In this document: positions 40,930 through 44,548 of the stretch, in pieces
Numbering within the stretch: position 1 is the first letter of the stretch
Layout: each line of letters starts with the position of its first letter
Assembly (NCBI RefSeq): GCF_001693255.1
Contig: NZ_CP016474.1
Location: 2,002,661 to 2,066,660, forward strand
Reading direction: 5' to 3'
DNA: 64,000 bases
Source of the DNA: Picosynechococcus sp. PCC 7003
GTDB lineage: Bacteria > Cyanobacteriota > Cyanobacteriia > Cyanobacteriales > MRBY01
Made by a program: the position numbers and the translations under genes
The notes under the pieces: model-generated
Seen by the model: the letters and a program-made list of their open reading frames with translations, nothing else
Database searches by the model: none
Told to the model about the DNA's origin: nothing

Positions 40930-41523
40930 CTAATCCAGTTCCCGCCTTCCTTCTAAGGCTCTGGCCAAAGTCACTTCATCGGCATATTCCAAATCGCCCC
41001 CCATGGGCAACCCAAAGGCAATGCGGGTGACTTTCGTAAAGGGTCGCAGCAATTGCGCCAGGTACAAAGTCGTCGTTTCCCCTTCCACGCTGGGGTTGAT
41101 CGCCAAAATCACTTCCTTCGTTTTTTCGGCGCTCACCCGTTGTACCAGGGCTTGGATGGTTAATTGTTCCGGGCCAATGCCATCCATCGGCGAAATTACG
41201 CCCCCCAACACATGGTATTTCCCTCGATATTCGCGGGTTTTTTCCAGGGCGATCACATCCCTTGAATCTGCCACCACGCAAATCACGTCTTGCGCCCGTT
41301 GAGGGTTCCGGCAAATATCACAGATGGACGTGGCCGAGAGATGAAAGCATTTTTGGCAAACGCCCACCTGTTTTTTCGCGTTCAATAGCGCCTGGGCAAA
41401 GGCTTCTACATCCTTTTCGGGGCGTTTGATGACGTATAGGGCAAGGCGTTGGGCGGTTTTCGGGCCGATGCCGGGTAAGCGCTGGAACTGTTCGATCAAG
41501 CGGGCGAGGGGGGGCGTATAAAT
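40930..41523 (-). CDS. recR: Recombination protein RecR, apparent AUU start
   Basis: A 197-residue RecR. Helix-hairpin-helix [15 protein letters not shown]4 zinc finger [22 protein letters not shown] block [14 protein letters not shown] and the end [18 protein letters not shown] are complete. The usual N-terminus [12 protein letters not shown] is present in frame, but the Met codon is ATT (41521-41523), with GGAGGA eight bases before it. The first standard start would be TTG 41499, which removes eight family-conserved residues. RecR works with RecFO to load RecA at gaps. Confidence 0.88.
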
Positions 41524-41588
41524 GGCGGGTTCCTCCAGGGACGGTAAAATTCTCCGAACCTTAATTCTAAAAGGCGATCGCCTCAGCC

Positions 41589-43319
41589 TTAATAGTGGGT
41601 GCCCGATTTTCGGTGGTGGATTGCGGTCATGCCGTTGTTTTGTAGCACTTGCCCCTTATCGGTGGTGGCATAGATGACCCAGTGATCGCCGCACTCCATC
41701 CGGTTGGCGACGGTACATTCGAGATAGGCCAGGGCATCGGTGAGGATCTGACAGCCATTGTCCGCCGTTTCCGTTGCCACCCCAGCAAAGCGATCTTCCC
41801 CAGGGGTAAAGGGTTTGAGGAAATGTTTCATCAACCCTAAATGGTTCCCTTCCTGGAGGACATTGATCACAAAATTCGTGCCCTTATGGAGGAGAGATTC
41901 GATCGCCCGCTCCTTGGCCACAGCGACGGTAAAGCCAGGGGGCGCAAAGGTCGCTTGGGAAACCCAAGAAGCCAACATCGCCCCAGAAAGGTTGTCCTGT
42001 TGGGTCGTGACAATACAGAGGGAGCCCACGAGTCGGCCTAGGGCCTGTTCCAAATTGTCTGATTGGGACGTGGAAGCGACGTTTTGTTTCGGTTGGCGTC
42101 GTTTCGCTGCTTTTTTAATCGCCTGGGCAAAATCTGTCCCGGTTTCTTCGCAGGTTTTCAGGGTGATTTCGGTGGGTTTAAATTTGACGCGGATCGGTTC
42201 AAAGCCCATCTGGTAGCCCGCATCTTTAAATTTGCCTTCGAGGAGATCGATTGCTTCACCACTCCAACCGAAGGAACCGAAGACTCCAGCAAGTTTATTC
42301 TTATCGGCATTGTTGAGGACGATTCCCAAAGCCGTCTGGATCTGGGTCGGAGCATGGCCGCCGAGGGTCGGGGAACCCATAATAAAACCACTGCACCGGG
42401 AAATAGCCCCCTTAATTTCCTCCGGGTCAGCATGTTCAGCGTTGAAGGTTTCGACCATCACACCCGCTTTGGAAATGCCGTGGGCGATCGCCTGGGCGAC
42501 AGTGGCAGTATTGCCGTAGGCGGAGGCATAGATTAGAGCAACAGACAGATCATTTTTTTGTTTTTCGACCCAAGCGCGATAGTTATTAAACAGTTCCTGA
42601 CGACTGTAGCGGATTAAGGGGCCGTGACCAGGAGCATAAATTTTGGCGGGAACTGCTTCGATTTTGCCTAGCCCAGCTAGGGTTTGGCGGATGGAACTAG
42701 CCATCACACAATCGAAATAGTAGCGGCGGTCTTCATCGTAAAATTGCCAGCCTTCGTCAAAAACTTGGTTACCACAAACGTGGGCGCCAAAAAATTTGTC
42801 CGTAAACAGAATTTCTTCTTGGGGATCGTAGGTGCAGAGGTGACCGGGAAAACGGGGAGTCGGCGTCGGGATAAATTCTAAACTGTGACCCTTGCCCAAA
42901 TCGAGGGTGTCGCCACTTTTAACGACCTGCACCTTGGGGGTTTCCTCCTTGAGTAAATCCTTGAGGGCGATCGCCGCTGGGTTAGAACAAACCAACGTGG
43001 CTTGGGGCGCAAGTTTGAGCAGTTCCTTGAGGGTAAAGCAGCGGTTGGGGTTGGTGTGGCCGAGGATAATGTAGTCTAGTTGACTCAGATCCGTGCGGTT
43101 TTGGATTTCTGCTAAAAACAGCTCAGAAAAAGATTCCCCAGGGGGATCGAGGAGGGCCGTTTTTTCCCCAGTAATTAGATAACTATTGGCCGTTGTCCCT
43201 TTTTGTAGGCCGTACTCAATCTCGAATTTGAGGCGATCCCAGGTGCGCGATCGCAGCAGCAAAACGTCATCACTCACCAAGTAGGGTTGGATATCTCTGG
43301 GGGGTGTTGCAACGGCCAT
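41589..43319 (-). CDS. flv1: Diflavin flavodiiron protein, Flv1-like
   Basis: A 576-residue class C flavodiiron protein; ATG 43319 ([15 protein letters not shown]) fits the family length. Order: beta-lactamase-like diiron domain ([36 protein letters not shown]), flavodoxin ([17 protein letters not shown]) at about 265-405, then a flavin reductase-like domain. The first ligand block reads HTNPNRC where the canonical form is HxExDH, as reported for Flv1/Flv2 rather than Flv3/Flv4. Flv1 with Flv3 reduces oxygen with electrons from photosystem I. The assignment to Flv1 is moderate. Confidence 0.8.
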
Positions 43320-43441
43320 AAAATTTTGGGGATCAAAATGTGCTTCAAATCCCAGTATCGCAAACTTCGGCGGGCGATCGCCATTCGGAGACAATGCGTA
43401 AAATTTATCGTCCCAATTGGCAAAATCAATCCCCCGATCCC

Positions 43442-44548
43442 TCAAGCTGCCGCGAGATAGGGGGCAATGGTGCGTTCAATCATCGTTAACAATTCCGCTT
43501 GGGTGGCACCATAGGCTAAATGGGCGGCGATCGCCAATCCCCCCGCGCCGACTCCTTCCTTGACGTAACCCTGTTCGTAGGCTTGCAATTGCGAATATTG
43601 GGACTCTTGAAAACTTAATTGCGTCGCCAATAGGGGCACATCGCCAATTAAATTGGCCAACCCCACCGTATCCCCCGTTGGATCTTCCGCGACCCAACGG
43701 GTTGTGCCCACCACCATATTTTCAGGTTGAAAATCAAGCTGATGGTCGTCACAAATCCTTTGGATTAAGGCATATACCGCTAACATCTGTGTTCCCCCTG
43801 CGAGTAAAACCCCCTGGGTTCGACTCAAGGCGATCGCCATGCCCGCGATAAATGGTTGCATCGGATCGCCCACTGCGGCCACCACAGTAAAAGGATCAGG
43901 ATTTGGGTTTAAATTTGCTTTTTCTAAACCGGTTTGCACGATTTGCCCCTTTAAATCGTGGTTACATTCGATATAACTACTATTCACTTTTTGATGGGCG
44001 TCGTAGCCTAAGCCCATTAACACCCCCAAAGCCGTTGTAGTGCCTGCCACCACACATTCTCCTAGCACAAACAGATGCCCAGAATATTGCGTTGCTAAGG
44101 TTTCGCCCCAGGTTAAACCTTGCTCGAAAAGTTTGTTCACCGTTGAAAGTTCGAGGGCTTTTCCCGTAGAAACACACCTTGCTTTTTGACCACCGAGATT
44201 AATACAATTCACCGCATTTTGGTCAGGTTTAAGCAATAATCCCGTATCAAATAGGGAGTAAGGAATTTGATAATGCTGCAAAATAGCACGGGATAAAATC
44301 GCCGGCGAAGCCCCGACAATTAATGGCGGCAAGGGATAAAGGGCTTGCTGCCGGAAACCATGACAAATACATTCTGCATCGGCGATCGCCGTATATTTAC
44401 GCGCCTCTGGGGTGGCTCCGGCAGCAGAAATATTAGGCATTAAAGCCGTATCTGTAAACCCCAATCCACAGGCAAAAACGACCGATTTTTGTTGATGGTT
44501 TGTGAGCCAAGTTTGGCCCTGTGTCTGTTGTGTATAAATGCGGATCAT
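43442..44548 (-). CDS. CobT-like nicotinate-nucleotide phosphoribosyltransferase family (TIGR00303)
   Basis: A 368-residue protein of the cyanobacterial TIGR00303 family related to CobT, which activates the lower ligand base of cobamides. Visible blocks: VVAGTTTALGVLMGLG, VAAVGDPMQPFIAGMAIAL, GVLLAGGTQMLAVYALIQ and EGVGAGGLAIAAHLAYGA. Cyanobacteria make pseudocobalamin, so a role in base attachment is plausible. It lies 122 bases upstream of the flavodiiron gene in the same direction. Confidence 0.78.
   Translation of the reverse strand: MIRIYTQQTQGQTWLTNHQQKSVVFACGLGFTDTALMPNISAAGATPEARKYTAIADAECICHGFRQQALYPLPPLIVGASPAILSRAILQHYQIPYSLFDTGLLLKPDQNAVNCINLGGQKARCVSTGKALELSTVNKLFEQGLTWGETLATQYSGHLFVLGECVVAGTTTALGVLMGLGYDAHQKVNSSYIECNHDLKGQIVQTGLEKANLNPNPDPFTVVAAVGDPMQPFIAGMAIALSRTQGVLLAGGTQMLAVYALIQRICDDHQLDFQPENMVVGTTRWVAEDPTGDTVGLANLIGDVPLLATQLSFQESQYSQLQAYEQGYVKEGVGAGGLAIAAHLAYGATQAELLTMIERTIAPYLAAA

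Follow-up and report, generated by a model that had tools for sequence, protein, structure and literature searches.

The window analyzed here (the whole stretch of 64,000 nucleotides from Picosynechococcus sp. PCC 7003) carries recR on its minus strand (Table 1). The encoded protein matches TIGR00615, the recR equivalog profile, over its full length (E = 1.9e-82; 275.5 bits relative to a curated cut-off of 162.55; profile positions 3–196 of 196), and its frame ends with the stop at 40930. The start region reads, from 5' to 3', CCCTGGAGGAACCCGCC-ATT-TAT-ACG-CCC-CCC-CTC-GCC-CGC-TTG, and the seven codons that follow the ATT encode YTPPLAR. The recR frame is free of stops for 44 codons upstream of this ATT (codon 0 hereafter), with an in-frame stop 45 codons before it, and from that stop to codon +15 the single ATG, GTG or TTG is the TTG at codon +8. 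Position 3 of TIGR00615 aligns with the tyrosine just after the ATT, which indicates that the N-terminus of RecR is intact from ATT onward; read in this way, the protein is one residue shorter than the profile, whose position 1 would fall on the GCC codon before the ATT. A preliminary description of this DNA had proposed that recR starts at AUU, with an intact and in-frame family N-terminus and no ATG, GTG or TTG at that place, and our analysis supports each of these points.

Table 1. Features of the recR start region, in positions of the window
Feature	Position	Strand	Observation
Proposed ATT start codon of recR	41521..41523	-	ATT in 6/6 genomes of the genus; coding-type conservation from the next codon
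SD motif GGAGG, 8 nt before ATT	41532..41536	-	Complementary to 16S 3' CCTCC
recR coding sequence read from ATT, 197 aa + stop	40930..41523	-	TIGR00615, E = 1.9e-82
TTG, first canonical codon of the frame	41497..41499	-	Not conserved within the genus
65-nt stretch between ATT and the stop of the preceding ORF on this strand	41524..41588	-	No fold signal; no Rfam match

The Shine-Dalgarno (SD) motif was also part of the preliminary description, which set GGAGGA eight bases upstream of the ATT: the motif is present, but the spacer is 7 nt for GGAGGA and 8 nt for GGAGG. A pattern of the 16S 3'-end that contains CCTCCTTT has two occurrences in the genome. In a 464-kb sample of the same genome, GGAG at a spacing of 6–11 preceded the first ATG in only 19 cases among 264 long ORFs (the first ATG of each long ORF is not always the true start), which suggests that the SD motif at the recR ATT is uncommon for this genome. 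The same-strand ORF upstream of the 65-nt gap (41589–43445) is presumably flavoprotein-like. Coupling to the upstream gene offers no general explanation of the recR start, since a same-strand ORF of at least 150 codons ends within 100 nt in only 24 of 116 loci. A structured leader element was also rejected: the 105 nt from 41484 to 41588 are less stable than shuffled sequences (z = +1.61), and the search of Rfam with positions 41300–41800 (501 bases) returned no match. The palindrome gcgatcgc, which we take to be HIP1, occurs in the recR leader of the window (41574–41581) and in the leaders of L002–L005.

The same start was found across the genus. All six genomes (the window and five others) present ATT preceded by an SD motif (GGAG), and none presents ATG. 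The leaders of these genes differ, and the in-frame stop before the ATT lies 2 codons away in L004, 7 in L003, 8 in L002, 14 in L005 and 104 in L006. L006 is the only locus of the genus with canonical codons upstream of the ATT, the nearest of them 24 codons away. Because the ATT is shared by six independent assemblies, and in one of them (L004) a stop closes the frame only two codons before it, a sequencing error at this codon is untenable.

We then compared recR starts more broadly. We searched relatives, the wider phylum and named contigs and read 254 recR loci, which were partly picked by similarity to the window protein. Removing 17 start-region duplicates left 237 loci: 182 cyanobacterial loci outside the picocyanobacteria, 28 picocyanobacterial loci and 27 loci belonging to other classes of this phylum. 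Twelve of the duplicates were among the 147 whole-genome loci of Cyanobacteriia, which left 135. The search of relatives gave no recR match in 4 of 60 genomes and the wider phylum search none in 10 of 386; of the matches listed for the other 376 genomes of the phylum search, a hand-chosen part was read. Starts were assigned in order of priority: first any canonical codon from −4 to 0, then ACG from −2 to 0, then NTN at codon 0 and last CTG at −2. Under this rule L260 is classed as canonical for a TTG at −2 that immediately follows GGGAGG, although GTT at codon 0 is likelier, and L171 (GGC) falls outside all classes and is counted among the odd-start loci.

The non-canonical start proved to be wider than the preliminary description had envisaged: a canonical start near the N-terminus is absent from 105 of the 135 distinct whole-genome loci of Cyanobacteriia. 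By genus, 71 of 88 are wholly non-canonical, 3 are mixed and 14 are canonical; by family, 26 of 40 are wholly non-canonical, 7 are mixed and 7 are canonical. Among the 182 loci outside the picocyanobacteria, we found ATT at codon 0 in 55, ACG in 65, GTT in 20, ATA in 3, ATC in 2, GTC in 2 and an unclassified codon in 1; the remaining 34 had a canonical codon no more than four codons away (23 ATG, 8 TTG and 3 GTG). In 22 of the 28 picocyanobacterial loci, codon −2 is CTG; in the other 6, all of genus g85, it is TTG. The loci concerned are L155–L169, L223, L226, L227, L229–L236, L243 and L244, a range that includes the TTG-bearing g85 loci. In the other classes of the phylum, a canonical start was found in 26 of 27 loci. 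As controls, recR has ATG in place in 12 of 12 loci from a different class of the phylum (all of one family), and ruvA of relatives has ATG in 28 and TTG in 2 of 30 loci (from 40 genomes). These results suggest that an odd codon (AUU, GUU, ACG or CUG) is the apparent start of recR in most of the sampled photosynthetic cyanobacteria. Two kinds of unusual locus were also seen: the picocyanobacterial genomes G372 and G399 (L243 and L244) carry an in-frame insertion in recR near profile position 132, and the recR match of L049 (Trichodesmium) is 812 nt long instead of 591.

Where translation begins can be read from codon conservation. Across 137 loci (the ATT and GTT classes and the loci with ACG at −1), the amino acids of codons +1 to +7 are nearly fixed and their synonymous codons vary. 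Upstream of the start, there is little codon conservation except for the SD motif, and in the ATT class in-frame stops occur up to codon −2. That codon 0 is invariant in each start class follows from how the classes are defined, but the choice among synonymous codons does not: isoleucine at codon 0 is encoded by ATT in 55 cases, ATA in 3 and ATC in 2, whereas the isoleucine of the LIE motif in the odd-start genes is encoded by ATT in 77, ATC in 66 and ATA in 4 (P = 2.4e-8, uncorrected for kinship). Such a bias at the level of bases is more readily expected of a start codon than of a residue inside the protein. The contrast is weaker for valine (GTT 20 and GTC 2 at codon 0, relative to GTT 63 and GTA or GTC 32 elsewhere; P = 0.02).

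These patterns bear on the reading that recR of the window starts at TTG 41499, the first ATG, GTG or TTG of its frame, and that translation leaves out the conserved stretch before this codon. The first canonical codon is likewise found at +8 in 19 of the 148 odd-start loci. Within the genus, however, TTG at this codon is found only in L001 and L002 and is replaced by CTG or CTC in L003–L006, and 37 of the 148 odd-start loci contain no canonical codon at all from codon 0 to +29. With amino acids so nearly fixed over the seven codons upstream of the TTG, we regard this start as highly improbable. In 30 of the 148 loci, a canonical codon does exist further upstream in frame, a point against starts at the odd codon. 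Initiation elsewhere would place the start at the GCC codon, with which the profile's first residue would align, or in another frame followed by a frameshift. Yet the codon before the ATT is any of 12 different codons among the 55 ATT loci, in-frame stops are found as near as two codons upstream, and in the window no frame holds an ATG, GTG or TTG between GGAGG and ATT. Taken together with sequencing error, these possibilities are barely credible. It is thus very likely, judging from the sequences compared, that recR starts at AUU (41523–41521) by SD-anchored initiation.

At the codon before the ATT, ACC, GCC, ACT or GCT stands in 37 of the 55 ATT-class loci; these are perhaps decayed ATG or ACG codons, or perhaps a preferred start context.

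The ACG class behaves differently in the position of its start. In these 65 loci, the ACG is found at codon −2 in 1 (L027), at −1 in 62 and at 0 in 2, and GGAG sits 7–8 nt before the ACG in 63 of them. The ACG therefore moves with the SD motif, keeping a near-constant spacing while its codon position shifts, and ACG is probably the start codon of this class. When ACG is at −1, the codon that follows is GTT in 59 of 62 loci (GCT, CTG and AAC once each), which is more constant than expected of a free second codon, so that the GTT might take part in initiation. GGAG at a spacing of 11 is also found before ATGs of the genome of the window, as GTT would require, but since it is the ACG that moves with the SD motif we considered GTT the less likely start.

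We further analyzed the relationship between the start codon and the SD motif, counting any motif of at least 4 nt located 3–13 nt before the start. Outside the picocyanobacteria, an SD motif was found in 136 of the 148 odd-start loci and in 4 of the 34 canonical loci (P = 2e-20; Fisher test, uncorrected); the 12 odd-start loci without a 4-nt motif include L171. The combination of a canonical start with GGAG at 4–12 nt was found in a single locus of 182 (L146). The canonical members of the mixed families f2, f13, f14, f15 and f32 lack an SD motif, and the mixed family f8, with ATG and AGGA, is a counterexample. None of the 22 picocyanobacterial CTG loci has an SD motif. We also built a quick RecR tree from 134 full-length proteins (20 with canonical starts), on which the state changed between canonical and odd at least 8 times and the kind of codon at least 21 times. 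The tree offered four supported independent pairs, in which SD and canonical start changed in opposite ways 2.7 times on average, in the same way 0.1 times and without a difference 1.2 times (P = 0.25); with so few pairs, support for the trade-off after correction for phylogeny is weak. These results suggest that a strong SD may offset the weak start of recR.

The preliminary description had hinted at autoregulation through IF3, by which near-cognate start codons are expected to be discriminated. In this reading, recR would be regulated by the level of IF3 or by start-codon stringency, in the manner of E. coli infC. Medium-dependent initiation at the AUA of ccpN has been reported (PMC13009471), which would be compatible with such control. 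The hint found no support in our data. At the aligned start of infC, GTG (usually as CCTGTG) was found in 27 of the 29 readable loci out of 30 (L173–L202, with the infC of the genome of the window as L188; the count omits L181). In four of these 27, an ATG also lies two codons upstream; in L202 this ATG stands alone. The infC of these cyanobacteria therefore provides no analogy for recR. In addition, the recR start differs by lineage among AUU, GUU, ACG, CUG and AUG, a variety that speaks against a single dedicated AUU/IF3 switch; several lineages have instead a recR ATG without an SD motif, and the recR leader in the window shows neither a stable fold nor an Rfam element. We consider control of recR through IF3 unlikely. 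A second, more distant infC-like gene was found above the family cut-off in G008, G020, G029, G031, G033 and G039 (E from 5e-40 to 9e-61).

Several known systems resemble the recR start in part. The pcnB gene of E. coli starts with AUU and, like recR, encodes no initiation factor, and arXiv 2008.10758 reportedly concerns genes that prefer non-AUG starts. In S. aureus, PMC13009471 describes cvfC1 (AUU), ccpN (AUA) and infC (AUA) as genes whose non-canonical starts are accompanied by extended SD motifs. Reporters of cvfC1, ccpN and citZ (AUA) are reported to yield about 10% of the output of AUG in poor medium, with up to 30% for ccpN in rich medium (PMC13009471). The infC genes of E. coli (AUU) and S. 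aureus (AUA; PMC13009471) are, like recR, housekeeping genes with a non-canonical start; their product, however, itself discriminates start codons, whereas RecR is a recombination mediator and its codon varies by lineage. A further likeness is to cvfC1 and ccpN, which combine a conserved near-cognate start with a strong SD: replacing the start by AUG raised reporter output, and the start of ccpN is reported to be common to S. aureus and B. subtilis (PMC13009471). Those starts were shown by Ribo-Ret and reporters, whereas the start of recR is proposed from sequence; the recR pattern extends to most sampled genera of a class and includes GUU, ACG and CUG variants. Across prokaryotes, weak starts (GUG and UUG) are reported to be paired with stronger SD motifs (Belinky et al. 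2017, PMC5622118). This compensation resembles the weak start and SD motif of recR but covers AUG, GUG and UUG, and in most sampled genera recR lies outside that set. The reconstruction in the same study reports a single switch from AUG to AUU among 61,358 ancestral AUG starts (PMC5622118), which shows how unusual recR is. Our literature search, with thin coverage of subscription literature and arXiv, returned no title on recR start codons in cyanobacteria.

Together, these observations point to the following mechanism. GGAGG on the recR mRNA would position the 30S subunit, and the initiator tRNA, presumably carrying fMet, would pair imperfectly with the near-cognate AUU, so that RecR would be made at a modest rate compensated by the SD. 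The pairing of a weak start (AUU, GUU or ACG) with a strong SD is shared by most sampled recR genes of photosynthetic cyanobacteria outside the picocyanobacteria, and most sampled picocyanobacteria have CUG without an SD. 

Why this arrangement persists is a separate matter, for which we considered two accounts with the same start site and mechanism. On the first, selection keeps the initiation rate of recR low, a suggestion that we advance tentatively, at somewhat less than even confidence. The second is neutral: a strong SD made AUG dispensable, AUG drifted away and the SD then became essential, with no selection for low output. We regard this neutral account as possible, if rather doubtful. 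It agrees with the lineage-dependent codon identity, with its many changes on the RecR tree, and with the threonine or alanine codon before the start in 39 of 55 ATT and 11 of 20 GTT loci, as if left by a decayed ATG or ACG. Overproduction of RecR in E. coli has been reported without the toxic effect of RecF (PMC10287930); such harmless excess agrees with neutrality and weakens dosage as a motive for low output, and we set aside RecR toxicity as that motive. Against the neutral account, AUG is one substitution away from ATT and ACG, and GTG one from GTT, and yet a canonical start with a strong SD is almost absent, which favors selection. Our tentative proposal of selection is that photosynthetic cyanobacteria would have retained a weak recR start through much of their history, with the codon turning over (AUU, GUU, ACG, CUG), the combination of AUG and a strong SD avoided, and selection acting on a set low rate.

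These results may affect annotation, since gene callers commonly assume ATG, GTG or TTG, and annotated cyanobacterial RecR proteins may therefore be truncated or extended. If selection for a set low initiation rate is indeed at work, GUU and ACG, hardly considered as such so far, would be genuine and evolutionarily stable bacterial start codons. The recR case also loosens the habit of tying an AUU start to IF3 autoregulation, and its orthologues constitute a natural series for testing the trade-off between start codon and SD. Cyanobacteria are often polyploid and exposed to light, and our findings raise the question of why a recombination mediator would be weakly translated in these organisms.
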